A DNA stretch of 64,000 bases from Bacteroidales bacterium MB20-C3-3 (GTDB taxonomy: Bacteria > Bacteroidota > Bacteroidia > Bacteroidales > UBA932). The position numbers and the translations under genes were made by a program. The stretch is from assembly GCA_035609245.1 (NCBI GenBank), contig CP141202.1:1240001-1304000 (forward strand). Reading direction: 5' to 3'. Shown here piece after piece: positions 1-36,232 of the stretch. Positions within the stretch are counted from its first letter, which is position 1. Every line of letters starts with the position of its first letter. The notes below the pieces were generated by a model. That model was not told the DNA's origin. It saw only the letters and a program-made list of their open reading frames with translations, and did no database searches.

Positions 1-399
1 GACTGAATTTGCTATAAATAACAGACTTGAAGGATCTGCAGAGGGGAGAGAAGCAGATAATTTTTTGAAATAGAGATTAACATCAAATGGAGATTCCTGC
101 GGAAATCCAAGTGCTTTCTGAATCTGTCCCGCAGTATTACCTGCTGCACCATTCCAGGCCATTGCCATCGCAAAATTGAGGCTGAGGGGAGAGATCATAA
201 AATTACCCTCCTCCTCTATCATCCCGAGTAACTTAAAAGCAATAGAATTTCCGGAAGATGCGACCCTGGCCTCTCCGGGTGTAAGCTCAATAACCGGCGC
301 CGGTTGAGTATTCTCATTCTCCTCCCCGGGCTTTGGCCCTTTTGCACAAGAGGCTGAATACAAAACAAATAGACAAAGCACAATTACCCTACATTTCAT
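1..399 (-). CDS. Serpin-family protease inhibitor lipoprotein, N-terminal part
   Basis: The reading frame runs from an ATG at 399 off the left edge, so only the first 133 residues are visible. It opens with a hydrophobic signal ending in a lipoprotein-like Cys at about residue 18. After a Pro/Glu-rich linker comes a segment typical of the serpin N-terminus: a helix with NSIAFKLL, then NFMISPLSLNFAMAMAWNGA followed by a Gly/Thr-rich turn and a Gln-Ile-Gln-Lys-Ala-Leu helix, as in serpin helices A to D. Serpins are suicide inhibitors of serine or cysteine proteases; the reactive-centre loop that sets specificity lies outside the window. It follows the peptidase operon with a 70-base gap and may be its last gene. 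Family is inferred from the N-terminal core only. Confidence 0.82.
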   Translation of the reverse strand, partial: MKCRVIVLCLFVLYSASCAKGPKPGEENENTQPAPVIELTPGEARVASSGNSIAFKLLGMIEEEGNFMISPLSLNFAMAMAWNGAAGNTAGQIQKALGFPQESPFDVNLYFKKLSASLPSADPSSLLFIANSV

Positions 400-469
400 A
401 GCGAAAGTATTTAAATAAAACATCAGTAAAATGCAGGTAAAGGTTAAGTCATTGCAATATAGATATTTT

Positions 470-1576
470 TTAGATAAATACCTCTTTTCTGACAGTTACT
501 TTCTCCAGTCTTTTCTCATTAACCTCCACACCTATTCCCGGACCCTGCGGAACATCCATTGTCCCATCGGCATTAACGGTAAAAGCGGGATCTACAATAT
601 CCTCCTTATAGTACTTTTTGCTTGCCGAAATATCTCCGGGCAGAATGAATCCGGGAAGAGATGCAAGAGCTACATTTCCGGCCCTGCCGATTCCTGACTC
701 CAGCATACCTCCGTGCCACACCGGAATACCCATAGAGAGACAATAGTCATGAATCTTTCTGGATTCAGTAAATCCACCCACTCTCCCCGGCTTAATATTT
801 ATTATTCTGCAACTTTTCAGCTCAATGGCAGCCCTCGTATCATCCAGAGAGTGAATACTCTCATCCAGACAAATTGAGGTTTTAACCTCTTTCTGAAGTT
901 TTGAGTGGTCGTATATGTCATCATACCCCAGCGGCTGCTCTATTAGTGAAAGATTGTACTCATCCATCTTTTTAAACAGGGATATATCATCCAGTGAATA
1001 TGCCGAATTTGCATCCACCTGAAACATTATATCCGGAAACTCTCTGCGAACAGCCTTAACCAAATTGATGTCCTGCCCGGGTGCAATTTTAATTTTAACC
1101 CTTTTGTAACCCTCCTTAAGATAGCCCTCAATTTTATGTAAAAGAGCAACCTCAGATTCCTGAATACCTATGCTTACCCCTACATCAATTTTATCCCTTG
1201 TACCACCCAGAAGTTTGGAGAGAGATACCCCTTTGGTTTTGGCCAGCAGGTCCCACAAGGCCGACTCTATCCCCGCCTTGGCCATCATATGCCCCCTTAC
1301 CCTGTCGTACAGAGCAATTGCCTCACCTACGCTTTGGAACTCTTTACCCAACAATTCCGGAATTAGAAAATCTCTCATTATGTGCCAGGCAGTTGTCACT
1401 GTCTCGTATGAGTAGAAAGGGGTCCCTTCGGCAACACTCTCCCCCCATCCGGTAAAACCATCCCCGTCTATACGAACCATTATATGCTCCTCATCATACT
1501 CGGTACCCATAGATGTAGTAAACGGAGTTACAAGCTCCATCCGGGTATGCCTGATTTCTATCCTCTCTATTTTCAT
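470..1576 (-). CDS. Enolase-superfamily N-acylamino acid racemase / o-succinylbenzoate synthase-like enzyme
   Basis: 368 residues, full length for the muconate-lactonising subgroup. The catalytic set is complete: a K-I-K pair at K161/K163, metal ligands D188 (VDAN), E213 (IEQP) and D238 (LDES), and the opposing lysine K262 in NIKPGRVGG. The C-terminal VWHGGMLESGIGRA stretch is typical of the NSAR/OSBS (MenC type 1) group. Family members either form o-succinylbenzoate for menaquinone or racemise N-succinyl/N-acyl amino acids. No other men gene is nearby, while peptidases and an amino-acid-type permease are, so racemisation of acylated amino acids is favoured; the alternative MenC role cannot be excluded. 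There is no signal peptide, so it should be cytoplasmic. Its ATG overlaps the stop of the M14 gene by four bases, implying translational coupling. Confidence 0.85.
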   Translation of the reverse strand: MKIERIEIRHTRMELVTPFTTSMGTEYDEEHIMVRIDGDGFTGWGESVAEGTPFYSYETVTTAWHIMRDFLIPELLGKEFQSVGEAIALYDRVRGHMMAKAGIESALWDLLAKTKGVSLSKLLGGTRDKIDVGVSIGIQESEVALLHKIEGYLKEGYKRVKIKIAPGQDINLVKAVRREFPDIMFQVDANSAYSLDDISLFKKMDEYNLSLIEQPLGYDDIYDHSKLQKEVKTSICLDESIHSLDDTRAAIELKSCRIINIKPGRVGGFTESRKIHDYCLSMGIPVWHGGMLESGIGRAGNVALASLPGFILPGDISASKKYYKEDIVDPAFTVNADGTMDVPQGPGIGVEVNEKRLEKVTVRKEVFI

Positions 1577-3033
1577 TTTTTTCTTACTCTTATTACTGGG
1601 TAATCCGATTCTCTATTCATTAATAATTCAAACTCCCTGTATGTAGCCAAACCTAGCTCTGACTGGGGTTCCATTGCTATTACAAGCAAGTTCCCCTTTA
1701 ACTGGGCTGTTGGTACATACAGGTAATTATTAATCTGGATTCCGGCCTCAAAAGGAGAGGAAGAGATCTGCGGGAAAGGAATAATATCCCCCTCAAAGTC
1801 TGTTGAATCCACTGACACAATTCTTATCTTCTCAAATCTGTACTCTTTATCATTGGAAATTACAGAAACAGCTAAACCCTGTCTGTTAATCCAATCAACT
1901 AAAAGTGTATTAGAAACAGGAATCAGATAACCAACAGGTTTTTCAACCGATAGAGTAGTCTTAACTACAGGTCTGAAGTTTTTTACAATAACCACCGAAT
2001 CCTTGCCTGTTTTGTACGAAAGAACAGGGAGTTCAAGAGTACTGCCATCAGAGAAATGGTCCATTTGAAGAGCAACTTTCTCACCCTCTTTTGGAGATAA
2101 AAGTCTGCTCCTCTCCTCCTTTACAATTTGTTTCATTTCAGCCCCGTTTTCATATACAAAGTTTAAAAGGGTCATCATTCCGCAAAACTGTGAATAGGAT
2201 CTGTGAGAGAGGTTCTCAACATAGTTATCTTTGCCATTCATCCCCTCCTGTATAAATGAGAAGGTATTCTGAATACCAAAACTCTGCCTCCCGTCGTTAA
2301 TATCAAATGTGCTGTAGCGGATATAATCATCCTCCGGCGGCCCTCCCGGGCTGTACATCCCTGCAGAGACACCTTGGTTTTTTACGGAGTTATACCAGAA
2401 AGGCCAAAACCTCTCTCTTTGTAAATCCCTGATATAGGCGGGGATCTGAGGGTTTGTATTAATCCCCAGCAGGATGTCTGAGTTTTTTCTGAATCCGGCC
2501 TTTTCCCATGACTCTCCGTAAGGGGAGTATTCATGAGCATCCAGAGTGACTTCAAAAAGGTATTTGTCAAACAGTTTGTGAAGTGCAATGACTTCAGGCT
2601 CCGTCATTATAAGGTGATTCCTGTTCAGATCCATCCCGTTTGAATTTCTTCTTTCATTCTTTTCCGAACCATCCGGATTAACTTGAGGTACAATAACAAG
2701 ATCTATCTTCTCAAAAAAATAAGAATAGTTATCCTTAATAAGCTCTTTGGCAAGCATAAGGGCTCCCTCCTTCCCCGACTGTTCGTTACCATGTTGCTGA
2801 GCATGAATCAACACCTTGATTTTGGTTTGATCTGTGCCAAAGCCTGACTTTGAAAAAAAGAGGGCAGTAATCTCTCTCCCCTGAACAGAGGTGCCAATTG
2901 TTTCCATCTTCACCAGACCGGACTGTTCTGTAAGTATCCGGGCTGCCTCTCTAAGCTGTCTGTAAGAGGTTGGCTGACCCGATAGGGTCATATATACTAA
3001 TGTCGCAGCCAGAAGTATTGTTCTCTTAATCAT
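1573..3033 (-). CDS. Secreted M14-family zinc carboxypeptidase
   Basis: 486 residues with a signal peptide (about 1-20, ending LSGQ). The M14 zinc site is visible: H81-G-N-E84 as HxxE and H167 in TLDAHEY, with the substrate-binding DLNRNH segment at about 135-140 between them. A Glu in FSFIQEG (about residue 265) is a candidate catalytic base. The C-terminal 190 residues lie outside the peptidase domain and look beta-rich. Members of this family remove C-terminal residues from peptides; export suggests action in the periplasm or outside the cell. It sits between the permease gene and the racemase-like gene in the operon, consistent with trimming imported peptides before transport. Substrate preference (basic or hydrophobic) cannot be read from the sequence. 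Confidence 0.88.
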   Translation of the reverse strand: MIKRTILLAATLVYMTLSGQPTSYRQLREAARILTEQSGLVKMETIGTSVQGREITALFFSKSGFGTDQTKIKVLIHAQQHGNEQSGKEGALMLAKELIKDNYSYFFEKIDLVIVPQVNPDGSEKNERRNSNGMDLNRNHLIMTEPEVIALHKLFDKYLFEVTLDAHEYSPYGESWEKAGFRKNSDILLGINTNPQIPAYIRDLQRERFWPFWYNSVKNQGVSAGMYSPGGPPEDDYIRYSTFDINDGRQSFGIQNTFSFIQEGMNGKDNYVENLSHRSYSQFCGMMTLLNFVYENGAEMKQIVKEERSRLLSPKEGEKVALQMDHFSDGSTLELPVLSYKTGKDSVVIVKNFRPVVKTTLSVEKPVGYLIPVSNTLLVDWINRQGLAVSVISNDKEYRFEKIRIVSVDSTDFEGDIIPFPQISSSPFEAGIQINNYLYVPTAQLKGNLLVIAMEPQSELGLATYREFELLMNRESDYPVIRVRKK

Positions 3034-3047
3034 TTGTATTTTTCTGT

Positions 3048-4652
3048 TTAAAATCCATTAAGTTGCATATAAACCGTAGGCAGAAGAAGAAGAAGTCCTA
3101 CAATCATCAGGAATAGCAAGATCTTCCAGAACCATTTGATCCACACTTCGTATGGTATTTTTGCAATACCCAGTGCACCAATCAGAACCGCAGATGTAGG
3201 TGTAATCATATTTGTAAAGCCGTCTCCAAACTGGAAAGCCATAACCGTAGCCTGTCTTGAGAGACCAATTACATCAGAAAAGGGTGCCATTATAGGCATC
3301 GTAAGCGCCGCCTTTGCAGATCCGGATGGTATAAATATATTAATACAGGTCTGTATGAAATACATTATTGAGACAGTGGCACCCTTCCCTGTACCCTCCA
3401 TTGTTGAAGAGAGAGAGTAAAGAATAGTATCCATTATCTTTCCGGCAGTAAGCACCTCAATAATACCACCTGCCAGACCAACTATAAGAGCTGCGGTAAG
3501 GATATCCTTAGCACCTGCTATGAACTCTTTTGCAATACCATTTGCTCCCGCTCCCATCGCAAAGCCGGATATAATACCCATTGCAAGGAATAGTGCCGAA
3601 ATCTCTGTCAGATACCATCCGTATCCAAGTACCCCAATCACAAGGAATATTATTGTAAATGCAAGTATGTTGAGAATAAAGAAGAGATATGACTTTCTAA
3701 GTGTATAGAAACCGGTTACCGCAAAAAGGGTTGCAAGAATTGGAAGAGCAACAAATGTTATGTCTGCCCCTCCCAGGCTGATAGTAGTTTTTGGATGGAG
3801 ATACGAGAATATCCCCAAAACAGCAGTAACCATTATGTACATAATCCAGGCAGATAGTGGAGTCTTCTGTGAAAAATCCACCTTCACGGCTTCAGATTCT
3901 CTCTCCCTCCAGTATGCATCCAGCTCATACATTGGCGAGAGCCTTGGATTTTTCTTCACCCTTGCTGCATAAACCAGTGTAATTGCTAATATCAGTGAAG
4001 TAAGTATCATCCATACGACAAGCCTGTATTCAAATCCTGAGAAGAGCTGAAGGCCGGACAACCCCTGGGCAATTCCTATGGTAAACGGATTGATTATGGC
4101 TCCCGAGAAACCAATGTGAGCTGCTACATATACCATAAGAATACCGGTGATTGAGTCGTACCCCATAGATATAGCCAGTGGCACAAAAATAATAACAAAA
4201 GCAAGGGTCTCTTCACTCATTCCAAAAATTGCTCCAAAGAGACTGAATATGAGCATTGAAAAGACTATTACCAGATTATTCACACCTATTTTTTTCAGAA
4301 GTCTCCGTTTTTCGAGAGTACCGGTTTTTTCAAGAAATGATAGTATACCAAAGTCAATTGCCTTGCTGCTGTTCATTATCTGGAAAGCACCTCCGATTAT
4401 CAGGACAAAAGCAATTATACCCGCCTGTTTTTTAAACCCCTCCAGCAGCGATCCAAAAATTTGCCAGGTCTGGGGAGATGAATCCACCTCTCTGTATGAA
4501 TCGTTTACTATTACATCTCTGGTTACTCCGTTTACCTCTCTCTTTTCATACTGAAACTCTCCGGCCGGAACAAACCAGGAGAGTATCCCGCAAAAAATTA
4601 TTAATGAAAAGATTATAACGAATGTATGCGGTATTTTTGACAGCCGAGCCAT
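3048..4652 (-). CDS. YfcC/DcuC-family inner-membrane permease
   Basis: 534 residues made mostly of hydrophobic spans, about twelve by eye. The N-terminus (PHTFVIIFSLIIFCGILSWFVPAGEFQYE) has the WxxPAGxF feature of the YfcC family, and the C-terminal half contains the conserved region with PSGSAKAALTMPIMAP and a Gly-rich, Thr/Asn-containing segment with DGFTNMITPTS. The family is annotated variously as putative basic amino acid antiporters or C4-dicarboxylate carriers; few members have a proven substrate. Its place between secreted peptidases suggests uptake of amino acids or short peptides released in the periplasm. Gaps to both neighbours are 11 to 14 bases, so it is part of the same transcript. 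Confidence 0.85.
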   Translation of the reverse strand: MARLSKIPHTFVIIFSLIIFCGILSWFVPAGEFQYEKREVNGVTRDVIVNDSYREVDSSPQTWQIFGSLLEGFKKQAGIIAFVLIIGGAFQIMNSSKAIDFGILSFLEKTGTLEKRRLLKKIGVNNLVIVFSMLIFSLFGAIFGMSEETLAFVIIFVPLAISMGYDSITGILMVYVAAHIGFSGAIINPFTIGIAQGLSGLQLFSGFEYRLVVWMILTSLILAITLVYAARVKKNPRLSPMYELDAYWRERESEAVKVDFSQKTPLSAWIMYIMVTAVLGIFSYLHPKTTISLGGADITFVALPILATLFAVTGFYTLRKSYLFFILNILAFTIIFLVIGVLGYGWYLTEISALFLAMGIISGFAMGAGANGIAKEFIAGAKDILTAALIVGLAGGIIEVLTAGKIMDTILYSLSSTMEGTGKGATVSIMYFIQTCINIFIPSGSAKAALTMPIMAPFSDVIGLSRQATVMAFQFGDGFTNMITPTSAVLIGALGIAKIPYEVWIKWFWKILLFLMIVGLLLLLPTVYMQLNGF

Positions 4653-4663
4653 TATATCAGGAA

Positions 4664-5524
4664 TTAAAGCTTATAAATATCTCCGGGATTTAATATAGTG
4701 AGTTTGAAGCTGGAGAGATCTCCGCTGCCGTTTACTGCACTATAAGGTTCAAACAGCATAGCCTTGTTATCTCCTATTACCTCAATTGTATTATCAGATT
4801 TTACAACAATTGCAGTCTCTTCGTCAATTCCTATTCCTCTTAAGCCCGGATTATCCATCAGGACTGAGATAAGTCTGATCTGCCTCTTTCTCTTTAGGAA
4901 ATGCTGGTCAACTACAATATTGTCAAGAAAACCAAAACCTTTTGCAGTAATAACATCTCCTTTCTCAATTGTGTTAAATATCTGAGAGTTGGTTGTGTCA
5001 CTTCTCTGTTCACCAGTGAGCATTACTCTGCTCATTATTGCTGCTCCTGCACTTGTTCCGCTTACAACCCCTCCGTTCTTGTATATCTCCCTGATTTTCT
5101 CAAGAAATTTAGTCCCCTCCAGATAAGCACTTAAAATAACCTGATCCCCACCGGAAAAAAAGATTGCCGTAACCCCATCCAGTTTTGCAAGACTTGAGGG
5201 TGAATCAATGCTGTCTTTTTCACAAAAGATGTAGTCAGCAGATTTACAGCCCAGAACACGGAACTCTTCACTCTGTTTTATCCCCGTCTCCTCAGCTACG
5301 CCACTTGCAAATGGTACAACCAATACTTTGGAATTCACTCCTCCGCTGTACTCAATAATCGTTTTTAAAATAACCTCTATTCTGTCTCCACCCCCCTCAA
5401 TAACAAGTGTGCCTTTTGAATCTATCTTTTCTGCCTCATATTTAAGTTCTGTTTGTGGATTCTGGCTACAAGCTACCATGTGCAATAATATAATTATTGC
5501 AATAAAGAGTGTTCTATTTTTCAT
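4664..5524 (-). CDS. Peptidase S51 / cyanophycinase-like lipoprotein
   Basis: 286 residues beginning with a lipoprotein signal (MVAC, Cys19), so the enzyme should be attached to the envelope. The S51 signature is strong: FFSGGDQ at about 122-128, nucleophile Ser158 in GTSAGAA, DQHF at 206-209 followed by a basic Arg/Lys stretch, and GIGIDEETA, all typical of cyanophycinase rather than of dipeptidase E. Cyanophycinases cut multi-L-arginyl-poly-L-aspartate into beta-Asp-Arg dipeptides; other S51 enzymes cut Asp-X or isoaspartyl dipeptides. The enzyme sits amid peptidase, permease and SusCD genes, so polymer or isopeptide breakdown outside the inner membrane is a reasonable inference. Substrate is unproven. 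Confidence 0.87.
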   Translation of the reverse strand: MKNRTLFIAIIILLHMVACSQNPQTELKYEAEKIDSKGTLVIEGGGDRIEVILKTIIEYSGGVNSKVLVVPFASGVAEETGIKQSEEFRVLGCKSADYIFCEKDSIDSPSSLAKLDGVTAIFFSGGDQVILSAYLEGTKFLEKIREIYKNGGVVSGTSAGAAIMSRVMLTGEQRSDTTNSQIFNTIEKGDVITAKGFGFLDNIVVDQHFLKRKRQIRLISVLMDNPGLRGIGIDEETAIVVKSDNTIEVIGDNKAMLFEPYSAVNGSGDLSSFKLTILNPGDIYKL

Positions 5525-5527
5525 AAT

Positions 5528-6628
5528 TTATTCTATTTCAGTCGTTAATAATTGATAGGCAATCTCTGATGCCATTTTTAGGTCCTTATAAAGAATGAAC
5601 TCATCATTCCCGTGCGGGTTTTGTGCCCCTACTCCCAAATTGATTGTTTTTATACCCTTTACATTTAGAGAGTTAGCATCGCTTCCACCCATTGATTTTT
5701 TTGGTGACGGGTTGAGGCCGAGTCTCTTTGCGATTTTTAAAAAATGAGTGTATGGTTTGTCATCCTCTTTGACAGAGTATGGTAAAAAATCCCAGAAGTG
5801 TTTTGACTCAAGCTTACCTCCATATTTTTCACATACCTTATTGAAGTCGCTTATGACCTTTGCCATAATCTCCTCTCCATGATGAGTAAAATCTGTTCTT
5901 ATCTCACCTGTCATATGAACTTCATCGCATACAACATTTGTCCCGGTTCCACCTTTAACTATTCCAATATTTGCGGTAGTTACTTCATCTATCCTCCCAA
6001 AAGGGAATCCGGCCATTGCTTCGGCTGCTATTTTAATTGCGTTTACCCCCTTTTCAGGAGATATTCCTGCATGAGCAGAGACTCCCCTCACCACAAGTTC
6101 AAAATTTATTGCACCGCATGTCTCTGATACAAAATTACCCGGAGACAAATAGGAGTCAAATACAAATCCATATTTCACAGCTGGAGCCGGTTTGTAATAT
6201 ATTGACCCGGCAAGAGTTGTCTCTTCACATACCGTAAAGAGAAGTGTGCAGGGCTTTAAATTCCCGTCCCTTACTGCCCTTTCAAGGGCAAAAAGAATAG
6301 ACGAAAGGCCCCCTCGGTCATCAACTCCTAGAGGAGTGGTCCCATCTGAAGTAATTCTGTCCTGATGAAACTGATGATTAAGGCGGGCAGTAGATCTTGG
6401 CGTGTCCATATGAGCCACAAGTAAATGCTCTCCACCACCAAGAATTTCAACAATCATATTGCCCGAATTTCCATTTGACAGGTCGCTGGCTCCATCTGCA
6501 AAACCCTTTAACCCAAAATTTCCTATGAACTTATTAATATATTCAGCAACAGGAGCCTCTTTCCCTGAAACAGCATCAATTGATGTTAATTCAATGAAAA
6601 TGTGTTTGAGCCTTTCGTCTAATACCAT
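5528..6628 (-). CDS. M20-family metallopeptidase, PepT-like
   Basis: 366 residues, no signal peptide, so cytoplasmic. The dinuclear zinc site of the M20 family is visible: H73 in VAHMDTP (with D75), D103 in GVDDRGG, the catalytic Glu pair E135/E136 in CEETTLAGS, D158, and a C-terminal His in NPHGNDEF. The dimerisation insert with VRGVSAHAGISPEKGVNAI is in the usual place. The sequence order and ETTLAGS motif resemble the peptidase T-like group, which releases the N-terminal residue from tripeptides, but acyl-amino acid hydrolases of M20 cannot be excluded; that alternative would fit the racemase-like gene downstream. Three bases separate it from the S51 gene. Confidence 0.88.
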   Translation of the reverse strand: MVLDERLKHIFIELTSIDAVSGKEAPVAEYINKFIGNFGLKGFADGASDLSNGNSGNMIVEILGGGEHLLVAHMDTPRSTARLNHQFHQDRITSDGTTPLGVDDRGGLSSILFALERAVRDGNLKPCTLLFTVCEETTLAGSIYYKPAPAVKYGFVFDSYLSPGNFVSETCGAINFELVVRGVSAHAGISPEKGVNAIKIAAEAMAGFPFGRIDEVTTANIGIVKGGTGTNVVCDEVHMTGEIRTDFTHHGEEIMAKVISDFNKVCEKYGGKLESKHFWDFLPYSVKEDDKPYTHFLKIAKRLGLNPSPKKSMGGSDANSLNVKGIKTINLGVGAQNPHGNDEFILYKDLKMASEIAYQLLTTEIE

Positions 6629-6651
6629 TTGTATGTGATTTTTATACTGAT

Positions 6652-7692
6652 TTACAATCCAAATACATTTACATTAGCCAGTCGTATATAGTAACAATCT
6701 GTGCAGTTTCCGTGAACAAAAGCAATATATACACTCTTCCCTTTGTACTGAGTTATATCGATTGTCTCTGTTTTATCTGATGCATAGCTTGCATCCAGTT
6801 CTGTCCAGTCTCTTAATATTGTTGCCTCACGACAATTTGCTAATGTTATAGGAGATTCCGAAATCACTACTCTGTAGTTCTCTTCAGGATAATCTTCATC
6901 ACCTGCCGAAATATCAAATGTCAGCATCACTTTATCCATTGTACTTCCAATGTTAATAAGAGGTGATACCAGATAGTTCTCCGGTGTGAGGGCACCCACC
7001 CCACCGCTTCTGTATGAATCAGATGTAGCGTGGCTCTTGTAGTACTCCCAGTTATAACCATCTCCATCTTTGTCTATCAGAGTCCAGGTGTCAGGGATTT
7101 CAGTGAGGAATCTCTCTGTAAAGTAGTAAATCTTATCTGGAGAAATCTTATAATTCAAAATTGAGGTTGGTTTGTTTGCTTTTGTGTCAGGTGAATCTTT
7201 AAGCACAACATAAAAATTCTTGCCTGTCTTCTTAAGCATATTAACCTGAATATACCCAAAATATTCTCCCTTTGGTATCGTGAGTGAACCTTTCATTGTA
7301 CCTGGAGTAAATGAAGAGTTGTTTCCTGTAACTATTACAAAGTCCTGACCATGAACTGCCGTTGAGAAGACAGTATCAACTACTGAGATATCTGTACCGG
7401 CCGGTACCTCTTCAACATAATTATCTTTATCTGTCAGATAATAGAGTTTCTGAACAATTTCATAGTTTACGGTCACATTTCCTGTGGATGTTTTAATCAG
7501 CTGAATACAGATAGAATCCAGACCCACTCTGTTGTTCTCCTTTTGAAGAATATTGCTCACAGTACCCTGTCTGTTTTCAAATGCACTGAATTCGTAGTAC
7601 TGAGGTCCCTGATAAGTTCTGTCCTCTTTTTCACACCCGCTCAGCAACAAGGATAAGAGGATTACAAAATTGATGTATAGTAAGTTTTTCAT
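6652..7692 (-). CDS. Surface lipoprotein with choice-of-anchor J domain
   Basis: 346 residues. A lipoprotein signal ends at LLSGC (Cys20) and is followed by acidic residues. Residues about 25-180 look like a beta-rich DUF4843-type domain; the C-terminal half, from YYFTERF to the end, has the pattern of cleaved-adhesin/choice-of-anchor-J domains (opening with IPDTWTLIDKDGDGYNW, then SPLINIG and a GKSVYIAF strand), a fold used in gingipain adhesins and many Bacteroidetes surface proteins. It lies directly after susD with a four-base gap, the position normally held by a SusE/SusF-like binding lipoprotein. Inference: it binds the peptide or protein substrate of this system. No catalytic motif was seen. 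Confidence 0.75.
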   Translation of the reverse strand: MKNLLYINFVILLSLLLSGCEKEDRTYQGPQYYEFSAFENRQGTVSNILQKENNRVGLDSICIQLIKTSTGNVTVNYEIVQKLYYLTDKDNYVEEVPAGTDISVVDTVFSTAVHGQDFVIVTGNNSSFTPGTMKGSLTIPKGEYFGYIQVNMLKKTGKNFYVVLKDSPDTKANKPTSILNYKISPDKIYYFTERFLTEIPDTWTLIDKDGDGYNWEYYKSHATSDSYRSGGVGALTPENYLVSPLINIGSTMDKVMLTFDISAGDEDYPEENYRVVISESPITLANCREATILRDWTELDASYASDKTETIDITQYKGKSVYIAFVHGNCTDCYYIRLANVNVFGL

Positions 7693-7696
7693 AATT

Positions 7697-9130
7697 TTAA
7701 TATCCTGGGTTGTTAACTAATTTTTTGTTTACATCCATTTCAGTTGCTCCAATAGGGGCAACAACCCGATAATCTGCGTAAGGTATCTCAGGAAGCCCGT
7801 TAGGTCTTGAAATTGGTAGCCCAAGCCTCTTCATGTCAAAAAACCGGTGTCCTTCAAAAGCCAGTTCTATCCTTCTTTGAAGCAAAATTTCATTTATCAG
7901 CTCTGAGTTTGCAACATCTGTATCATCCAGCCCTCTAATGTTTCTCAATGCATTAATATCATTACGGGCCTGTGTGTAATTTTTCATGTGTGCATAAGCC
8001 TCTGCCCTGTTAAGATAAATTTCAGATATTCTGATTAATGGGACATCGTCCAATCCAAATGCACCACCCCAGCTGTTAAACTTGGTTGTCCACCACAAAT
8101 CCTGTCCGTAATAGTGAACTTTTCTAAGTGCACCAAACCTCTTGTCATTATCCTTATCTATAATATTTATAAAGTCAGGGGAAACTGAAAGTTGAGCATC
8201 TCCCGGTCCTGTCCCATCACCAAATCCCTCCTCATCCCTAAATCCATTATCCATTGTCCCATAAGTAGAGTGAAGGGATATTGATTTTAAATTTTCAGTT
8301 ATTGTATAATGAAGTTGCCAGATTGATTCTGTCCCTTTTGAAAAAATATCTGTATAGAGACCATTGTACAATTTAACCTTTGAATTTGTGATTGTTGTAC
8401 TTGCTGCAGCTATTGCATTATCCCACTCCCCCTTATAAAGATATACCCTGGATTGAAAAGCTTTTACTGCCAGAGCAGATACTCTGTAAGGGAAATTTGA
8501 TCCGTCATTGTTATTCAGCAGAGTATAAGAGTCGTTAAGATCCTTTACAATCTGTGTCCATACAACATCCACTGTTGCCCTTGGAACAGAGGCCTGTTCA
8601 GTAATACTTCCTCCCTCGTTAAAGAATGGTTCTGTAAGTAGTGGAACACAAAGATTAAAATTCTCAACCAGTTTTCCGGGAACTCTACTATATATAATAC
8701 TTAAATTAAAGTAGTTGTAAGCTCTCAGAAACAGTGCTTCTCCTGTAAGGGATTTAACCTTTGCTGTTTGGTCAAGTTGTGATAAATAGTAAATGGCCTC
8801 ATTCAACGCACCTATCTGCTTATATGCAATTTCCCATATATCCAGATTGTAATTTGGCTTAAAGTTATACTGGCCCGAATAGCTTGTAGCTCCGGGAGAG
8901 AGCTGTGTATTATCACCCAGAACATCCGGAATACATATCAGATCTCTTCCGGCATAGTATCCATCTTGTAGCTGGTCATATACACCTATTATTAAACTTT
9001 CACAACCGGTTACAGTTTTGATTTTATCTTGCGGCAATGCGTGCTTTGTACTCACATCAAGCATTGAATCGCAAGATGAGTTTGCAAAGAGCACAAATAT
9101 TGTGACAATAATTAAATTTATTTTTTTCAT
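7697..9130 (-). CDS. SusD/RagB-family nutrient-binding lipoprotein
   Basis: 477 residues with a lipoprotein signal (Cys20 in NSSC) and the SusD-like pattern: an N-terminal TPR-type region with EALFLRAYNYFNL, a middle variable part, and a C-terminal segment containing LIRISEIYLNRAEAYA, LRNIRG and LLQRRIELAFEGHRFFDMKR, which is highly typical of RagB/SusD. SusD proteins sit on the cell surface as the lid over the SusC channel and capture the ligand. It is paired with the SusC gene upstream (11-base gap). The surrounding peptidases imply a peptide-type ligand, in the manner of the RagAB system of Porphyromonas; that is inference. Confidence 0.93.
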   Translation of the reverse strand: MKKINLIIVTIFVLFANSSCDSMLDVSTKHALPQDKIKTVTGCESLIIGVYDQLQDGYYAGRDLICIPDVLGDNTQLSPGATSYSGQYNFKPNYNLDIWEIAYKQIGALNEAIYYLSQLDQTAKVKSLTGEALFLRAYNYFNLSIIYSRVPGKLVENFNLCVPLLTEPFFNEGGSITEQASVPRATVDVVWTQIVKDLNDSYTLLNNNDGSNFPYRVSALAVKAFQSRVYLYKGEWDNAIAAASTTITNSKVKLYNGLYTDIFSKGTESIWQLHYTITENLKSISLHSTYGTMDNGFRDEEGFGDGTGPGDAQLSVSPDFINIIDKDNDKRFGALRKVHYYGQDLWWTTKFNSWGGAFGLDDVPLIRISEIYLNRAEAYAHMKNYTQARNDINALRNIRGLDDTDVANSELINEILLQRRIELAFEGHRFFDMKRLGLPISRPNGLPEIPYADYRVVAPIGATEMDVNKKLVNNPGY

Positions 9131-9141
9131 ATCCGGATTGA

Positions 9142-12100
9142 TTAAAAGTTAATCTTAATACCTATACTTAAACTCTTTGACTGAGGATAGAGCCCTCTGT
9201 CTGAACCCACAGATTCAGGGTCATAGCCCTGATACGGAGTTGTTGTCCATACATTGTATGCATTTGCATATATCTGAGCATCTGATATTCTCAGCTTTTT
9301 AACAAGTTTCTGAGGTATGTTATAGCTTAGGTTTATATTTTTTAATTTAATAAAGTCCGTAGATTCGTAAATAAGACTCATTGAGGGATCACTATTATTA
9401 TCATACTTCATTGGATTTCCCGGATATAAACCATCAATTACAGGCCTTGGCACCCAGGTATTATCGCCAGGCTTTCTCCAGTACGAGTTATAGATATCTG
9501 CAAGAAGGTTGTTGTCTGCAGCTTGCCCTATTAACACAGCTTTGTCACTCCAGTATTTGAGGGCACCCCTCTGAAACTGGAAAAAGAAAGAGAGTGTGAA
9601 GTTTTTCCAGGAGATAGTATTTTCCATACCTCCAAAGAATGTTGGATCAAGACCTTTTGTCCAGACTCTGTCTTCAAGTGTTGGATTATAGGTAATATAT
9701 CCATCTTTATCATAATACATCGGACGGCCATCAGAGCTGTTTACTCCTGCCCACTGATATACATATTCTGCAGTAATAGGCTTACCCACCTTGTACTGAC
9801 CAAGCTCCTCAAGACCATCCTGTAATTCAGTAATAAAGTTCTTTGCAAGAGAGATGTTGAAAGAGGTTTCCCACTTGAAATTCTCCCCATCAATATTGAC
9901 AGTATTCAGCTGAATATCTATCCCTTGATTTCTAACACCGCCCATATTTGATGGAATAATGCTAAAACCTGTTGTCTGAGGTATTATCCTGTAATAGAGC
10001 AGATCTTTTGTGTCATCCATATACATGTCAACATTAGCACTTATCCTGCCACCAAAAATGCCCGCAGTCAGCCCCACATTCTTTGAGTGTTTCTTCTCCC
10101 ATGTAAGTTTAGGGTTACCTATGGATGAAGGAATAATCCCGGATGATCCGTTATAAGATGAATTTGCATCATAGAGTCGCTGTGATACATAGTTTCCAAT
10201 ACTGGCGTTTCCGGTTATACCGTAACTTGCTCTAAGTTTAAGGTCATTAAGCCACTCAACATCTTTAAGGAACTTCTCCTCCTTCATTCTCCAGGCAAAG
10301 GATACCGATGGGAATGTTCCCCATTTATTATCGGCACCAAAGCGAGATGAACCATCATACCTGATTGTGCCTGTGAGAATATATTTGTCTTTAAAAGTGT
10401 AGCTTGCCCGTCCAAAGAATCCTGCCATCTTCCATTCAGAGTACTCCTCCATTGTGGAAATTGGTGTGGCAGCGCTGCTCAGAAGAGTAAGATCAGGGCT
10501 GGAAACACCATTGGCCTCTGCTCCAATCATATGATATTTATAGCTGCTGTAAGAGAATCCGGCAACTGCACTTATTCTGTGTATATCTTTTATTGTAGTG
10601 TTATAAGTAAGGACCTGCTCAGACTGGAATTTATTCACATCAGATGAGTTTGCAATAATGGCTCCGTTAACCCTTGAACCGAGTCTTGTCCGGGGATCAC
10701 TGAACTGGTGCTCATTTAGCCAGGTAAGATCCAGGTTATAACTACTTTTAAATTCAAGTCCTTTAAGAATTTTGAAAGTCAAGTCATTTGCCGAGATCAG
10801 ATTATTAGTCTTGCCTATATACTCATTAAGTTCAAGCATTTGTGGAATATTATACAGAAAATAACCATACTGCAAATCTGAGTAGTAATTTCCCTCAGAA
10901 TCTCTGGGCGAAACTCCCGGTAACAAAAACATTGCAGTCCTGGAGGGGTTTGCTGCACCTACTGTTGATGACTGATTGTGAGTAGTCCCACTGAATGTAT
11001 TATTAGTATTAAAAGTAAGCCACTGAGTTATTGTGTGGCTAAGATTAAGCCTCCCGGAGACTCTGCTGAAGCCTGTGTGTTTAATTATACCATCTGTTTT
11101 GTTATATCCCAGTGAGGTATAAAACTTTGTGTTATCACCTCCTCCAGAAAGGCTTACCTGATAATTCTGTACCAGGGCTCTTCTGAATATTTCATCATAC
11201 CAGTTTGTGGTTGGTGCATTTGAGTATCCGTCATCTCCCCATCCAAAGCTTTTAAAAAGATCCAGCTTCTCATTGTACATGTTAGTACCATTGTACTCAT
11301 CATAATTTTTGTACTCAAGCAGGGCAAATTCGGCCCACTGCTTACCATTGAGAAGAGGAACCCTGCGGATAATATCCTGAACACCTGCTGTAGCTGTAAC
11401 CGATACCTTGGTTTTACCTGAAGCTCCCTTCTTGGTTGTTATTATTACTACTCCGTTTGCTGCCTGTGCTCCGTATATTGAGGCCGATGCACCATCCTTC
11501 AGCACGCTTATAGACTCGATATCCTCAGGATTAAGGCCGGCAAGGACATCTGCATTGGTTAAAATATTTGTTGTCTGTGCTCCGTTTGTTACCTGTACAC
11601 CATCAATAATATAGAGAGGCTGTGTATCGGCATTTATTGAACCGCGCCCCCTGATATTGATTGAGAATGACGAACCCGGGATACCGGAAGTAGAGGTAAT
11701 TTGAACTCCGGACATCTTTCCCTGTAGTGCCCTTTGAAAATTTGAGCTGTTTGTTTTTGCAAGAGATTCTGCAGTAATGTTTTCAATAGATCCTGCTATA
11801 TCTTTCTTTCTTGTTACACCATAACCCACTACTACAATCTGCTCCAGTTCATTTTCCGCCTCCCTGAGAGCTACATTAATAAATCGCTGCCCGTTAATTG
11901 CTATCTCCTGAGGTCTCATCCCCAAAAAATTAAAAACAAGAGTATTTTGCTTTGCAATATCCTCTACCCTGATTTTATAATTACCATCAAAGTCAGAAAT
12001 TACCCCTTTTCCTTTCTCTCCTTTTATTTCTACAGATGCACCAGGTAATGGCTCATTGTTTAAATCGGTAATTTTGCCGTAAACAAAGAGTGAATCAATC

Positions 12101-12471
12101 TTTTCATCTGGTTTTTTCTGATCTTTTGAGGGGGTGGCTTTCTCAGTAATCTTTTTTATGTAGATTACCTTCTTGTCTATGCTAAAGGTAAGCCCTGTCC
12201 CCTCAAGACACCCATCCATAATCTGGCTGATTGTACTTGATCTGAACTCCTTAGTTATTTTAGGAATTTTTACAATGTCCAGATCTTCGTAGACAAAGAA
12301 GTAATTACTCTGCGATGTTATCTGAACCATCGCCTCTTTAAAAGTAACATTGTTTAGCTTTACATTGTATACTTCCCTCTGTGTCTGTGCAGACAACTGT
12401 CCGGTACACAGAATCAGGGCGTACAATAAAAAGAAAACAAACAAATTTTTATACCCTTTGTTTTTTTTCAT
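9142..12471 (-). CDS. SusC-family TonB-dependent transporter with STN signalling domain
   Basis: 1109 residues. Domains in order: signal peptide (about 1-29), an STN (secretin/TonB short N-terminal) domain at about 36-107, a carboxypeptidase-regulatory-like domain at 128-205, a TonB-box-like VVVGYG at about 213-218, the plug with GSINADTQPLYIIDG and the SusC-typical DIESISVLKDGASASIYG, then a long outer-membrane barrel ending in a terminal Phe. The STN domain is the part that contacts a FecR-type anti-sigma protein, and one is encoded just upstream with an ECF sigma factor. This makes it a transducer as well as a transporter: ligand binding should induce its own operon. Neither of the other two SusC proteins in the window has an STN domain. 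Confidence 0.95.
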   Translation of the reverse strand: MKKNKGYKNLFVFFLLYALILCTGQLSAQTQREVYNVKLNNVTFKEAMVQITSQSNYFFVYEDLDIVKIPKITKEFRSSTISQIMDGCLEGTGLTFSIDKKVIYIKKITEKATPSKDQKKPDEKIDSLFVYGKITDLNNEPLPGASVEIKGEKGKGVISDFDGNYKIRVEDIAKQNTLVFNFLGMRPQEIAINGQRFINVALREAENELEQIVVVGYGVTRKKDIAGSIENITAESLAKTNSSNFQRALQGKMSGVQITSTSGIPGSSFSINIRGRGSINADTQPLYIIDGVQVTNGAQTTNILTNADVLAGLNPEDIESISVLKDGASASIYGAQAANGVVIITTKKGASGKTKVSVTATAGVQDIIRRVPLLNGKQWAEFALLEYKNYDEYNGTNMYNEKLDLFKSFGWGDDGYSNAPTTNWYDEIFRRALVQNYQVSLSGGGDNTKFYTSLGYNKTDGIIKHTGFSRVSGRLNLSHTITQWLTFNTNNTFSGTTHNQSSTVGAANPSRTAMFLLPGVSPRDSEGNYYSDLQYGYFLYNIPQMLELNEYIGKTNNLISANDLTFKILKGLEFKSSYNLDLTWLNEHQFSDPRTRLGSRVNGAIIANSSDVNKFQSEQVLTYNTTIKDIHRISAVAGFSYSSYKYHMIGAEANGVSSPDLTLLSSAATPISTMEEYSEWKMAGFFGRASYTFKDKYILTGTIRYDGSSRFGADNKWGTFPSVSFAWRMKEEKFLKDVEWLNDLKLRASYGITGNASIGNYVSQRLYDANSSYNGSSGIIPSSIGNPKLTWEKKHSKNVGLTAGIFGGRISANVDMYMDDTKDLLYYRIIPQTTGFSIIPSNMGGVRNQGIDIQLNTVNIDGENFKWETSFNISLAKNFITELQDGLEELGQYKVGKPITAEYVYQWAGVNSSDGRPMYYDKDGYITYNPTLEDRVWTKGLDPTFFGGMENTISWKNFTLSFFFQFQRGALKYWSDKAVLIGQAADNNLLADIYNSYWRKPGDNTWVPRPVIDGLYPGNPMKYDNNSDPSMSLIYESTDFIKLKNINLSYNIPQKLVKKLRISDAQIYANAYNVWTTTPYQGYDPESVGSDRGLYPQSKSLSIGIKINF

Positions 12472-12498
12472 AATTAAGTTTAGTTAGTAGGTAATAAA

Positions 12499-13620
12499 TT
12501 AGTATATCGTTACGGTTCTTCCATCAATTTTAATGTGTCCCGGGACCATCCTGGCAAAAGTATTGAGCAACTCCTCCGGACTCTCCTCCCTGCTGAGTTT
12601 TCCGGACAACACTCTCTCCTTAACAGAGCTCTCTTTAAATATTACTTCAAGACCGTACCATCTTGCCAAGTCTCTCATAATATCCTCAAGTCTTTGTTTA
12701 TCAAAAAAGTACACACCCTCTTTCCATGAAGTGTATATAGCTGTATTGACATCGGTTACCTCTAACCCTCCAGCCTTTTTATTGTATAGAGACTGTTCCC
12801 CAATTTTCATGTCATAGCCCTCTTTCTCTCCCATACTGTTTAAATATCCAATATTGATTCTCCCCTCAACGAGTGTGGCTGCAATTTTATTGTCCTCGCT
12901 ATAAGCTTTTACATTAAACTGAGTCCCTGTTACACTGACTTTTGCACCATCTGTAATTACGCTAAATGGTCTTGAACTATCTTTTGCAATATCAAAAAAT
13001 CCCTCTCCATCAAGATTTACAATCCTTGATGACCCTTTGAAATTTGTGGAATATGACAATGAGCTTTTTGAATTTAACCATACAACAGATTCATCAGGGA
13101 GAATAATTTTGAAAAGCCTTATTTCCGGGACAACTATACGATGCACTGCCACTCGTTTGCTCTTCTGAGGATAGTACTTAATTGTATTCCGGTCTATTTT
13201 CACACACACATTTTCAATGTCTGTACTATCTTCTATGGAGTTTAAACTTATTATTCTGGAGCCATCCACAATCAGAGTAATATCTTCAAAATGCATATTC
13301 CGGTCTATAGTTTTCTGCTCGTTTATCTCTATAATAATCTGGTATGCAGACAAAGCGACAATGAGACTTATTACCAGAACAGCTGCTATCCTCCTGAGCA
13401 TCGGACTAAAAAAGAAAGCTCTCTTTTTAGATGAGATCCTATTGTAGTCTTTGTATCTGCTCTTTATATACTCTCTGTTTTGAAGTCTGTTATATAGCTC
13501 CTCGTTCTCTTCAGAGAACTCTCTCCAGCTATTCAATTCTCTCTTTTCAATTTCATCAAGTTCTGACAATAAGTTTTTTGTCAGCAGCGACTTAATTCTG
13601 TTAATTTGTTCTTCTTTCAT
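12499..13620 (-). CDS. FecR-type anti-sigma regulator
   Basis: 373 residues from the ATG at 13620; a GTG eight codons upstream is less likely. The N-terminal 70 residues are charged and cytoplasmic, followed by one membrane span (about 70-88, IAAVLVISLIVALSAYQII region). The periplasmic part has the FecR pattern (DESVVWLNSKSSLSY, then GEGFFDIAKDSSRPFSV and VTGTQFNVKAY) and a C-terminal DUF4974-like domain with the segment EDIMRDLARWYGLEV, an STN-like fold. FecR proteins hold the cognate sigma factor inactive until the STN domain of the outer-membrane transporter signals ligand binding. Gene order sigma-fecR-susC with gaps of 87 and 27 bases supports this pairing. Confidence 0.93.
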   Translation of the reverse strand: MKEEQINRIKSLLTKNLLSELDEIEKRELNSWREFSEENEELYNRLQNREYIKSRYKDYNRISSKKRAFFFSPMLRRIAAVLVISLIVALSAYQIIIEINEQKTIDRNMHFEDITLIVDGSRIISLNSIEDSTDIENVCVKIDRNTIKYYPQKSKRVAVHRIVVPEIRLFKIILPDESVVWLNSKSSLSYSTNFKGSSRIVNLDGEGFFDIAKDSSRPFSVITDGAKVSVTGTQFNVKAYSEDNKIAATLVEGRINIGYLNSMGEKEGYDMKIGEQSLYNKKAGGLEVTDVNTAIYTSWKEGVYFFDKQRLEDIMRDLARWYGLEVIFKESSVKERVLSGKLSREESPEELLNTFARMVPGHIKIDGRTVTIY

Positions 13621-13707
13621 TATTCTGTCAATATTTTTACACACAAAAATAAGTGCCCTCTATATCAAGGACAACTGAAAACTTAAAAAGGGTGGAACAG
13701 GAGTTTT

Positions 13708-14262
13708 TTAATTGTAATTTTTTAGCAGAAACATTGCAATAACAAACAGCTCCTTCAAAGACTCTTTTAGAAGTTGTTTTGCTCTGCTTTTCTGACTTTT
13801 AACGGTGTTGACAGATATTCCCAGTTTGTCTGCAATCTCCTGATTACTCATCCCTTCAATATAACTTAATCTGAAAATTTTATTACACTCTTTTGGGAGT
13901 TCATCAAGACTGGAAAAGAGCTCAAAAAGAATTTCGGTCTCAATTCTGTCAATAAGATAACCGGAGTTATCAGCATCGCTCTCTTGAGAAAAAGTATAAT
14001 CAGCAAACCGCTTTTTGACGCCGTCTCTTTTTATGTGATTAAGTGAAGAGTTTCTTACAGCAGAAAAAAGATATGACTTCAAGGCATTTTCGTTGCTCAG
14101 GGAGATTTTTCTTTCAATGAGTCTGGTAAACACAGACTGGACTACATCTTCTGCTTCTGAGTATGATTTTGTGTACTTGTATGCATAAAAACAAAGCAAT
14201 GAATGATATTTTGCATATATCTCCTTAATGTCGCCATTGGATAACAGATTCTCAGTATTCAT
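13708..14262 (-). CDS. ECF RNA polymerase sigma factor (sigma-70 family)
   Basis: 184 residues from the ATG at 14262. Longer versions of the frame run back into the neighbouring terminator and are rejected. Region 2 is seen in the stretch YHSLLCFYAYKYTKS followed by EAEDVVQSVF; region 4 in LPKECNKIFRLSYIEGMSNQEIADKLGISVNTVK, the helix-turn-helix for the -35 element. This pattern is typical of the Bacteroidetes ECF group that pairs with FecR proteins. It is the first gene of the roughly 14-kb peptide operon and probably drives a promoter for susC and the genes behind it, although a target promoter could not be picked out. A housekeeping -7 element lies 22 bases ahead of the start. Confidence 0.93.
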   Translation of the reverse strand: MNTENLLSNGDIKEIYAKYHSLLCFYAYKYTKSYSEAEDVVQSVFTRLIERKISLSNENALKSYLFSAVRNSSLNHIKRDGVKKRFADYTFSQESDADNSGYLIDRIETEILFELFSSLDELPKECNKIFRLSYIEGMSNQEIADKLGISVNTVKSQKSRAKQLLKESLKELFVIAMFLLKNYN

Positions 14263-14283
14263 TGCTGTTTTACAAGTATCTTT

Positions 14284-14291
14284 CAAAGATA
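14284..14291 (-). promoter_or_regulatory. Putative -7 promoter element for the ECF sigma gene
   Basis: On the minus strand the bases read TATCTTTG, an exact match to the Bacteroides -7 consensus TAnnTTTG, 21 bases ahead of the sigma-factor ATG. No good TTTG was found at the usual 19-21 base spacing; that region is taken up by the terminator of the preceding gene, so the promoter may be weak. Confidence 0.45.
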
Positions 14292-14292
14292 A

Positions 14293-14317
14293 CAAAAAAG
14301 CAGGCATCACTGCCTGC
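14293..14317 (-). terminator. Rho-independent terminator after the acetate-family transporter gene
   Basis: A perfect 7-base stem (GCAGGCA/TGCCTGC) with a four-base loop is followed on the minus strand by a run of six T. It lies 25 bases past the stop of the transporter gene and separates that unit from the sigma/FecR operon. Confidence 0.85.
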
Positions 14318-14341
14318 TCTCTTTTATGTATTAAAGCCCTT

Positions 14342-14908
14342 TTACCTTTTTTCAAGGAATGGTTTTCCCATTGGCAGCACCGTTTTACCTGCAAGATCAT
14401 TAATGATAATGCCCGCCATCATATACCATGCACCTAATGCGCAGAAAATTAACTCATACCCTGCAACAACATTTAAAACAGGATATCCAAAGTGACCTGC
14501 AACCAGAAGGATAAATCCTATCAGCAGTAAGAAAAAGGTAATTGCCATTGCCTTATGCACTCTGAGGGAGGCAACGAACATAATAACAGTGTAGAGAGTC
14601 CATGCAAGCATAAAATACCCGACATCTGTTGTGGAAGATTTATAAACATCCAGGATATTCAGTATCCAGATAATTCCAAGACCTATCCAGAAACTTCCGT
14701 AAGCCACAAAGGCCGAATATCCAAAATTATTGCCCATCTTCTGCTCCTGAAAGCCTGCTATCATTTGAGCCAAACCTCCAAAGATGATTCCCATTGCGAG
14801 TACAGGACCCAATCCCAAAAGTCCGATGTTGTGAAACTGCAGTAAAAGCGTTGTCAATCCAAACCCCGCCAGACCTACCACTGCCGGATTTCCATTTTTC
14901 TGATTCAT
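14342..14908 (-). CDS. SatP/YaaH (GPR1/FUN34) family acetate/succinate transporter
   Basis: 188 residues from the ATG at 14908; an alternative start eleven codons upstream adds a non-conserved tail. The protein has about six membrane spans and the family signature near its N-terminus, a GNPAVVGLAGFGLTT stretch equivalent to the NPAPLGL motif, plus GLAQMIAGFQEQKMGNNFG in the middle, matching the conserved Gly/Gln/Glu segment of YaaH proteins. Family members move acetate, and in some cases succinate, with protons across the inner membrane. It forms its own unit between an AcpH gene read the other way and its own terminator. Confidence 0.9.
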   Translation of the reverse strand: MNQKNGNPAVVGLAGFGLTTLLLQFHNIGLLGLGPVLAMGIIFGGLAQMIAGFQEQKMGNNFGYSAFVAYGSFWIGLGIIWILNILDVYKSSTTDVGYFMLAWTLYTVIMFVASLRVHKAMAITFFLLLIGFILLVAGHFGYPVLNVVAGYELIFCALGAWYMMAGIIINDLAGKTVLPMGKPFLEKR

Positions 14909-22902: not shown

Positions 22903-22935
22903 ATATATCCCAATTTCACTTGTGTGAAATTTCAA

Positions 22936-22973
22936 TAAAAAAAAACTGCCCCGGGAAAATTCCCGAGGCAGTT
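22936..22973 (-). terminator. Rho-independent terminator of the large lipoprotein gene
   Basis: On the minus strand, the arms AACTGCC and GGCAGTT enclose a second stem CGGGAA/TTCCCG, giving a GC-rich hairpin with one internal mismatch, then a run of nine T. It lies just past the stop at 23006. Confidence 0.92.
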
Positions 22974-23005
22974 CCACCAAATATAGTTCTAAGAAATAAT
23001 TCTAA

Positions 23006-25699: not shown

Positions 25700-25782
25700 T
25701 TTAAAATTTTTAGTTAATATTTGGTTGGACATTTTGTTTCAATGTAGATTAGGTATCTTTTTACATTACTGGTTAACAGGTG

Positions 25783-25813
25783 CAAATATATGAAAAATGT
25801 TTTTCGCCAACAA
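25783..25813 (-). promoter_or_regulatory. Bacteroides-type promoter for the large lipoprotein gene
   Basis: Minus strand: TTG, 20 bases, then TATATTTG, a full match to the TAnnTTTG -7 element with a good -33 partner at normal spacing. It would give a leader of roughly 75 bases ahead of the ATG at 25699. Confidence 0.65.
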
Positions 25814-27552: not shown

Positions 27553-27565
27553 TTAGGTTCGCGGA

Positions 27566-28957: not shown

Positions 28958-28995
28958 ATCAATCTGTTTTTGTCGTTTCAACAAAGATACAATTT

Positions 28996-36226: not shown

Positions 36227-36232
36227 AAAATA

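Follow-up and report, generated by a model that had tools for sequence, protein, structure and literature searches.

A SusCD operon with a cyanophycinase-type S51 lipoprotein and an M20 peptidase as a candidate scavenging system for beta-aspartyl peptides in Bacteroidales

Introduction

Exported cyanophycinases are called CphE, and the cyanophycin utilization locus of Salinivirga cyanobacteriivorans L21-Spi-D4, studied by Ben Hania et al. in 2017, reportedly includes a SusC/SusD-like uptake complex. Here, we analyse an operon that shares several features with that locus and lies in a stretch of 64 000 nucleotides (hereafter the window; positions 1 240 001 to 1 304 000 of contig CP141202.1, assembly GCA_035609245.1) from Bacteroidales bacterium MB20-C3-3. 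It encodes a SusCD pair, a choice-of-anchor-J lipoprotein, an M20 metallopeptidase, an S51 peptidase and a YfcC-type permease. We read it as a SusCD system that scavenges fragments of cyanophycin or closely related peptides with beta-aspartyl (isopeptide) bonds, and place the probability of this reading at just over one half (roughly 0.52).

Scavenging clusters are described in PMC10206079 as a cyanophycinase with IadA or IaaA and transporters. The same paper credits the cyanophycin utilization locus to Ben Hania et al. and states that the dipeptidases of Firmicutes and Bacteroidota are still undiscovered; the term ‘M20’ does not occur in it. PMC6243061 reports that strain Omega has an S51 pair resembling that of Salinivirga, one member plain and one with a Por secretion domain, and PMC8528874 reports exported cyanophycinases without a synthetase in marine Acidobacteriota.

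Results

A conserved M20-S51-YfcC module

Homologous loci were gathered by an S51 alignment scan of a public genome collection, and the best 80 of 256 confirmed candidates were read (the clade loci). The set was picked by similarity to the window S51 and its rows are not independent; some loci lie on short contigs, and some (L062 and L034, for example) come from the same genomes as the regions given G handles below. Directly next to S51 stand M20 on the 5′ side in 59 of the 80 loci and YfcC on the 3′ side in 52, with median gaps of 1 and -1 bp and frequent 4-bp overlaps. SusD, the anchor-J lipoprotein, M20 and YfcC occur together in 23 loci, in all of which the lipoprotein stands between SusD and M20. 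The full order, from an extracytoplasmic function (ECF) sigma factor through FecR, SusC, SusD, anchor-J lipoprotein, M20 and S51 to YfcC, is present in 12; among neighbourhoods of the family, it was seen in the window genus and in a second genus (G003, G074, G108 and G097), with protein identities of 30–86% across the loci that share it. Two further regions (G012 and G067) show a partial order broken by contig ends, and in G036 another gene separates M20 from S51. Gene order is conserved beyond chance. The sigma/FecR head proposed in the initial annotation recurs in these 12 loci and is not constant: among the 20 loci with SusC, SusD and M20, seven have no ECF or FecR gene upstream of SusC and one is cut there.

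An S51 match was found in 20 of 149 family genomes, the window genome counted. By S51, the nearest named records are the metagenome-assembled genomes (MAGs) Gw_SlPrim_bin_240 (99%) and HJP_bin42 (86%), and Bacteroidales bacterium CF (CP006772, 73%). M20 with S51 is also found in Ignavibacteria, Chlorobi, Neomarinimicrobiota, Elusimicrobia, one Calditrichia and one Deltaproteobacteria MAG; loci of KSB1, Aminicenantes and Acidobacteria have S51 with YfcC or S51 alone, and those of Kapaibacteria S51 alone. The M20-S51-YfcC core is an old module. It stands after SusCD and the anchor-J lipoprotein in Bacteroidales; elsewhere its frequent neighbours are an RpiR/SIS regulator (24 of the 80 loci), a PorV-like protein and a TonB-dependent receptor, which give the module a second kind of outer-membrane context. 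In L086, L094, L118, L125, L129 and others, the module is followed by proteins tagged for the type IX secretion system (T9SS), RpiR/SIS, the TonB-dependent receptor and the PorV-like protein. In an Ignavibacteriae MAG (L091, 10800–14332), it continues with a 690-residue fusion of S51 to a T9SS sorting domain and an M14 relative (41% identity).

The S51 lipoprotein is of the cyanophycinase type

The window S51 scores 162.7 bits against the cyanophycinase model TIGR02069 (cut-off 126.6) and is approximately 33% identical to 3EN0 and 7UQV. Its residues S158, Q128, D206, Q207, H208, R212, R214 and R217 align with S132, Q101, D172, Q173, H174, R178, R180 and R183 of 3EN0, which we take to be catalytic and substrate-site positions of CphB. 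All eight are invariant in the 24 SusCD-type S51s, in 39 others that have M20 or YfcC beside them and in 17 that have neither; in the S51 peptidase 6NQC, most of these positions hold other residues. An AlphaFold (AF2) model (predicted local distance difference test, pLDDT, 90.4) has 3EN0, 7UQW and 7UQV as its nearest solved folds (E 5.6e-21 to 1.4e-18), with weaker matches to 6NQC (1.7e-13) and peptidase E (1.7e-12 and weaker). The classification in PMC9239234 divides the S51 family among six clades and keeps cyanophycinase separate from PepE. Nearly all module S51s start with a signal- or lipoprotein-like stretch, the few exceptions being mis-set or cut starts (signal peptides were judged by eye throughout). 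Orthology of the window S51 with the S51s linked to cyanophycin synthetase (CphA) was rejected on the basis of a quick tree, in which the two fall in separate clades.

M20 and IadA alternate beside S51

The window M20 scores 221.3 bits against the PepT-like model TIGR01883, below its cut-off of 274.25, and has its metal-site residues in place. Its sequence and fold matches include PahZ2, carnosinase-2 and Xaa-Arg dipeptidase, which, judging by their names, are M20-family enzymes acting on polyaspartate, beta-linked or arginine dipeptides.

A second set was drawn from the order: 393 genomes were searched, 85 had an S51, and 20 regions were fetched from among the highest-scoring genomes other than the window genome and G010. 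These 20 S51s are 29–36% identical to that of the window and retain the compared residues with two exceptions, a gap at Q128 and a T in place of Q207, each seen in a single sequence; 19 fall on the module side of an S51 FastTree (support 0.69). By BLAST, SusD is present in 12 of the 20 loci and IadA in 13, two of the IadA genes being truncated by the end of the stretch. All nine full-length IadA proteins scanned pass TIGR01975 (429–505 bits), and a tenth scanned protein (L246:12877) is a T9SS aminopeptidase. The IadA loci contain SusD in nine cases and a YfcC relative in eight; seven of these permeases are 51–57% identical to the window YfcC and the eighth 39%. A joint clade of M20- and IadA-type Bacteroidales permeases has no support in a YfcC tree (0.258), so the link between the permeases rests on these identities.

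M20 was found in none of the 20 order-level loci and IadA in none of the 80 clade loci, 60 of which have M20. A Fisher test on the 73 loci with either enzyme gives p ~ 1e-14, computed on rows that share ancestry and were sampled by S51 similarity. Within this sample, IadA and M20 are mutually exclusive, but M20 can be accompanied by IaaA. At the level of whole genomes, an M20 orthologue (56–100% identity) is present in all eight M20-type genomes, and in 17 genomes of the other type (order-level regions other than G921, G761 and G891), M20 matches are of 24–28% in six and absent in 11. The window has no IadA among its ten operon proteins, and its genome has no IadA match at E 1e-30. Counting matches over cut-off, the 35 module genomes have IaaA in 20, IadA in one and neither in 14. 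IaaA lies near S51 in four of the 80 loci (L080, L083, L100 and L118), of which three also have M20; in L080 and L100, it is directly divergent from SusC. At G000:C1:260402–261277 (L151), the genome has an IaaA gene (PF01112) that stands separately; its N-terminus is signal-like, and a sodium:dicarboxylate symporter gene directly follows it.

Genome context points to an outside substrate

Cyanophycin synthetase was over cut-off in none of the 35 module genomes, many of them MAGs, with weaker family matches in all 35; this points to a substrate from outside. For comparison, out of 50 genomes with a cyanophycin synthetase match, 32 synthetase loci of Bacteroidota were read, yielding 22 S51s. A role of M20 as the missing dipeptidase of cyanophycin producers is not supported: it occurs in none of the 32 synthetase loci, 15 of which have IaaA and three IadA. 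Arginine deiminase and aspartase were sought in 20 genomes; arcA-type matches, all under cut-off, were found in 17, and an aspartase match in the window genome falls 2.7 bits below its cut-off. The window genome has arginine-deiminase-like and aspartase-like genes, and matches of both kinds are also present in relatives without an S51 match and are therefore not discriminating.

The racemase and M14 are accessories

The last two genes of the operon, for an M14 carboxypeptidase and a racemase-like enzyme of the enolase superfamily, lie outside the conserved core. The initial annotation would be contradicted by homologous loci that lack the peptidases, and M20, S51 and YfcC do recur in such loci; M14 was seen in seven of the 80 clade loci, in five of these at 37% identity at least, and the racemase in six (62–100% identity). 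The racemase exceeds the TIGR01928 cut-off of 200.65 at 382.6 bits, and its best solved matches are the N-acylamino acid racemases 2ZC8 and 1SJA (1e-99). K161, K163, K262 and R265 are in place, the last aligning with R266 of 1SJA, a residue tied to racemase specificity by a reference title only. By this score, the catalytic lysines and the R266 equivalent, the enzyme belongs with the N-succinylamino acid racemase/o-succinylbenzoate synthase (NSAR/OSBS) subfamily. Homologues of 62–73% identity stand just before M20 in an unclassified MAG (L109) and a Neomarinimicrobiota MAG (L118), and, in an Ignavibacteriae MAG (L122), near M20 on the opposite strand, separated from it by one gene; these positions are unlike that in the Bacteroidales operon and so suggest repeated recruitment. 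Chemically, an N-succinyl amino acid that gains an amino group becomes a beta-aspartyl amino acid; given this proposed link, the enzyme may epimerize beta-aspartyl dipeptides. As for M14, the name CphZ is absent from its 34 solved-structure hits, and its match to AstE/AspA is weak (E 6.6e-5) and below cut-off.

Proposed function and alternative explanations

The sequences show the gene set with its order and conservation, the alternation of M20 with IadA and an active site of the cyanophycinase type; substrate, localization, flow, induction and activities are inferred as follows. The anchor-J lipoprotein and SusD would capture peptides at the cell surface for import by SusC. Outside the cytoplasm, the S51 lipoprotein would cleave the aspartyl backbone and so release beta-aspartyl dipeptides, for example beta-Asp-Arg, which YfcC would pass across the inner membrane; M20 would split them in the cytosol, as IadA would in the sister loci. 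These steps are proposed because of the protein families and their apparent signals. M14 may trim or cut basic residues outside, the racemase may act on beta-Asp-X dipeptides, and the ECF sigma factor, FecR and the STN domain of SusC would render the operon inducible by its own substrate. Because the window genome has one S51 match only, fragments or soluble material would be expected rather than granules. The substrate named in the initial annotation, peptides, stands as a class and is probably too broad, since S51 is of the cyanophycinase type and the sister loci encode the beta-aspartyl dipeptidase IadA.

Several observations weigh against this proposal. The module S51s form a clade apart from the 22 CphA-linked Bacteroidota S51s in the quick tree (22 versus 81 rows), and a second tree puts 3EN0 and 7UQV on the CphA-linked side, with a support of 0.30. 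In addition, 7UQV carries the same eight residues and is titled ‘pseudo-CphB’, so these residues do not fix the substrate, and our confidence is lowered on this account. The window genome, with its single S51 match, has no T9SS-borne second S51, so other organisms would first have to cut the intact polymer. The closest solved relatives of M20 are named peptidase T or tripeptidase, and neither M20 nor YfcC was found in the 32 synthetase loci. The M20/IadA alternation is confounded, as the two locus sets were chosen by S51 similarity and differ in S51 lineage. Nor is the dipeptidase gap general, since 20 of 35 module genomes have IaaA and three loci have it beside M20. Finally, the locus is patchily distributed within the genus: among 11 other genomes listed, a close S51 was found in one, a distant S51 in two and no S51 in eight.

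The peptidase T-like relatives of M20 would suit general oligopeptide scavenging in the manner of RagAB, in which SusCD imports mixed peptides, S51 acts as an exopeptidase directed at Asp, M20 as an ordinary peptidase T and YfcC as an importer or exporter of amino acids. The YfcC model closest to the permease is named for a putative basic amino acid antiporter, though under cut-off, and peptide-importing SusCD systems are known (PMC11817032). Such scavenging would not lead us to expect either a cyanophycinase-type active site invariant across phyla or the alternation of M20 with IadA, and we consider it unlikely. We think it improbable that the locus serves the use of aged or damaged protein, with S51 and M20 handling the isoaspartyl bonds of peptides from detritus and the racemase rescuing their D-residues. 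The racemase would then be explained, as it is not by cyanophycin, which is all L, and the record titles of many carriers mark them as environmental or rumen MAGs. The occurrence of IaaA, a promiscuous isoaspartyl peptidase according to PMC10206079, near S51 in four of the 80 loci would also fit. Against this reading, the racemase is found in only six of those loci, and the S51 arginines match those of the cyanophycinase 3EN0.

Two further explanations start from the racemase. The locus might handle N-acylated (N-succinyl) or D-amino acids, with M20 as a desuccinylase, comparable to the D-amino acid pathway of Geobacillus. This is very unlikely: the exported S51, SusCD and the IadA alternation would be left unexplained, no acyltransferase is present among the ten operon proteins, and the racemase was not seen in 74 of the 80 loci. 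Alternatively, the gene could be menC, for the o-succinylbenzoate synthase of menaquinone synthesis, merely adjoining the operon; TIGR01928, which it passes, does bear the name o-succinylbenzoate synthase. The window genome, however, has no MenD match, the racemase gene overlaps that of M14 by 4 bp, and relatives lie within two genes of M20 in three more loci, so we find this hardly credible. MenD was over cut-off in none of 16 genomes searched, the window genome among them, and passed in seven of 14 control genomes, and the menC assignment was rejected for lack of MenD.

A bolder extension of the beta-aspartyl scavenging reading would make the module M20 a new family of beta-aspartyl dipeptidases that replaces IadA, has members in several phyla and bears no relation to IadA or IaaA, and the racemase homologue a beta-aspartyl-dipeptide epimerase, the two forming a joint pathway for beta-aspartyl peptides with D- and L-residues. 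We regard this as doubtful.

Organization of the operon and its surroundings

The window genome is a single contig of 2.38 Mb, and its order, Bacteroidales, matches the kin of the locus. Ten open reading frames (ORFs) on the minus strand fill positions 470–14400, the operon proper covering 470–14262 (table 1), with intergenic gaps of -4, 14, 11, 3, 23, 4, 11, 27 and 63 bp. The close spacing of ten minus-strand genes reported in the initial annotation is thus borne out, and Pfam and NCBIfam agree with its gene names. It had also remarked on the absence of glycoside hydrolases: Pfam hits of the ten proteins include no carbohydrate-active enzyme family, so by this measure the operon is not a glycan polysaccharide utilization locus. 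The annotation's picture of a SusCD locus directed at peptides, headed by sigma/FecR genes and with peptidases predicted on both sides of the inner membrane likewise agrees with our analysis.

The ECF sigma gene most likely starts at 14262, because family homologues have 181–190 residues and a hairpin lies upstream at 14294–14323. This hairpin, which has a T-run, is 3′ of the upstream GPR1/FUN34/YaaH gene and separates that gene from the operon. The sigma/FecR/STN-SusC signalling set is complete within the one operon, although the STN match of SusC (PF07660, 24.6 bits, E 2.2e-5) is below the Pfam cut-off of 28.4. The permease scores 368 bits against NF008611, under the cut-off of 500.

Table 1. 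Genes of the operon, in order of transcription; positions are those of the window.
Gene product	Position	Strand	Matches and remarks
ECF sigma factor, TIGR02985 type, 184 aa	13708..14262	-	Pfam/NCBIfam; longer ORF reaches 14400
FecR-type anti-sigma factor	12499..13644	-	PF04773 and PF16344 (FecR, FecR_C); GTG start
SusC/RagA TonB-dependent transporter with N-terminal STN-like and CarbopepD_reg_2 domains	9142..12471	-	TIGR04056 846 bits, TIGR04057, PF07660
SusD/RagB lipoprotein	7697..9130	-	PF07980, PF14322
Choice-of-anchor-J (Cleaved_Adhesin) lipoprotein, candidate surface binding protein	6652..7692	-	PF07675, NF038128
M20 metallopeptidase, PepT-like, candidate beta-aspartyl dipeptidase	5528..6628	-	TIGR01883 below cut-off; no signal peptide seen by eye
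S51 lipoprotein, cyanophycinase type	4664..5524	-	TIGR02069 162.7 bits
YfcC-type inner-membrane permease, DcuC/AbgT-like	3048..4652	-	PF03606 1e-95, NF008611
M14 zinc carboxypeptidase, accessory	1573..3033	-	PF00246 7e-21; HxxE, DLNR and DAHE motifs; N-terminal signal-like stretch
Enolase-superfamily enzyme, racemase-like	470..1576	-	TIGR01928 382.6 bits; 2zc8 and 1sja at 1e-99; K161, K163, K262, R265

A serpin (PF00079) lipoprotein gene (window 1–423, minus strand) begins 46 bp past the racemase gene. A consensus scan found no terminator-like site between the two, and the serpin gene may be read through from the operon. It is complete in L053 (7159–8424, minus strand), present in L060 and absent from L062 and L063. 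Further along the window, two more SusCD pairs (29054–39559) lie within the region 20151–39559, accompanied by genes for a beta-lactamase-fold protein and aminopeptidase P (M24) and by an opposite-strand gene for prolyl oligopeptidase; this is possibly another peptide-directed SusCD region.

Comparison with known systems

SusCD-linked cyanophycin loci are already known, and the version with M20, M14 and the racemase appears to be new. No M20 arrangement for cyanophycin was seen in the titles and abstract openings of the literature matches listed, a coverage that excludes most subscription papers, and the matches listed held nothing on CphZ/AotO or PahZ2.

With no M20 near 32 synthetase genes, the enzyme does not directly fill the dipeptidase gap. 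It is a concrete candidate for the dipeptidase of scavengers, locked beside a cyanophycinase-type S51 in the place of IadA, in Bacteroidales and several mostly uncultured phyla. The locus further suggests that SusCD systems with sigma/FecR genes have been redirected to isopeptides as a source of nitrogen. It also gives orphan N-succinylamino acid racemase homologues a role that can be tested. If our reading is right, peptide-directed SusCD loci could be sorted by substrate, as glycan loci are.

Compared with known systems, the operon shares with the Salinivirga locus a cyanophycinase-type S51, a transporter and, reportedly, a SusC/SusD-like uptake complex. Several of the fetched Bacteroidales loci (for example L244, L245, L247 and L261) are built like that locus, three of these four with a YfcC at 56–57% identity, and the IadA-type loci here also show S51 pairs like those of Omega and Salinivirga. 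The window differs in having M20 for IadA, a single S51 for the pair with a T9SS copy, and M14 and the racemase in addition. Its S51 shares with cyanophycinase (MEROPS S51; CphB, 3EN0/7UQW) the fold, the catalytic Ser and His, the compared residues and a TIGR02069 score over cut-off, but, at approximately 33% identity to 3EN0 and 7UQV, it is a lipoprotein from a clade apart from the CphA-linked Bacteroidota S51s. M20 would have the dipeptide-cutting role of IadA, IaaA and the M14-type CphZ, yet is of another family. The racemase resembles the NSAR/OSBS enzymes of Amycolatopsis (1SJA) and 2ZC8 (E ~1e-99) in its catalytic lysines and R266 equivalent, and differs from them in sitting in a putative beta-aspartyl peptide operon in a genome without MenD. 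Finally, like RagAB and other peptide-importing SusCD systems, the locus would devote SusCD to peptides, not glycans, and to this it adds a cyanophycinase-type enzyme and sigma/FecR genes.

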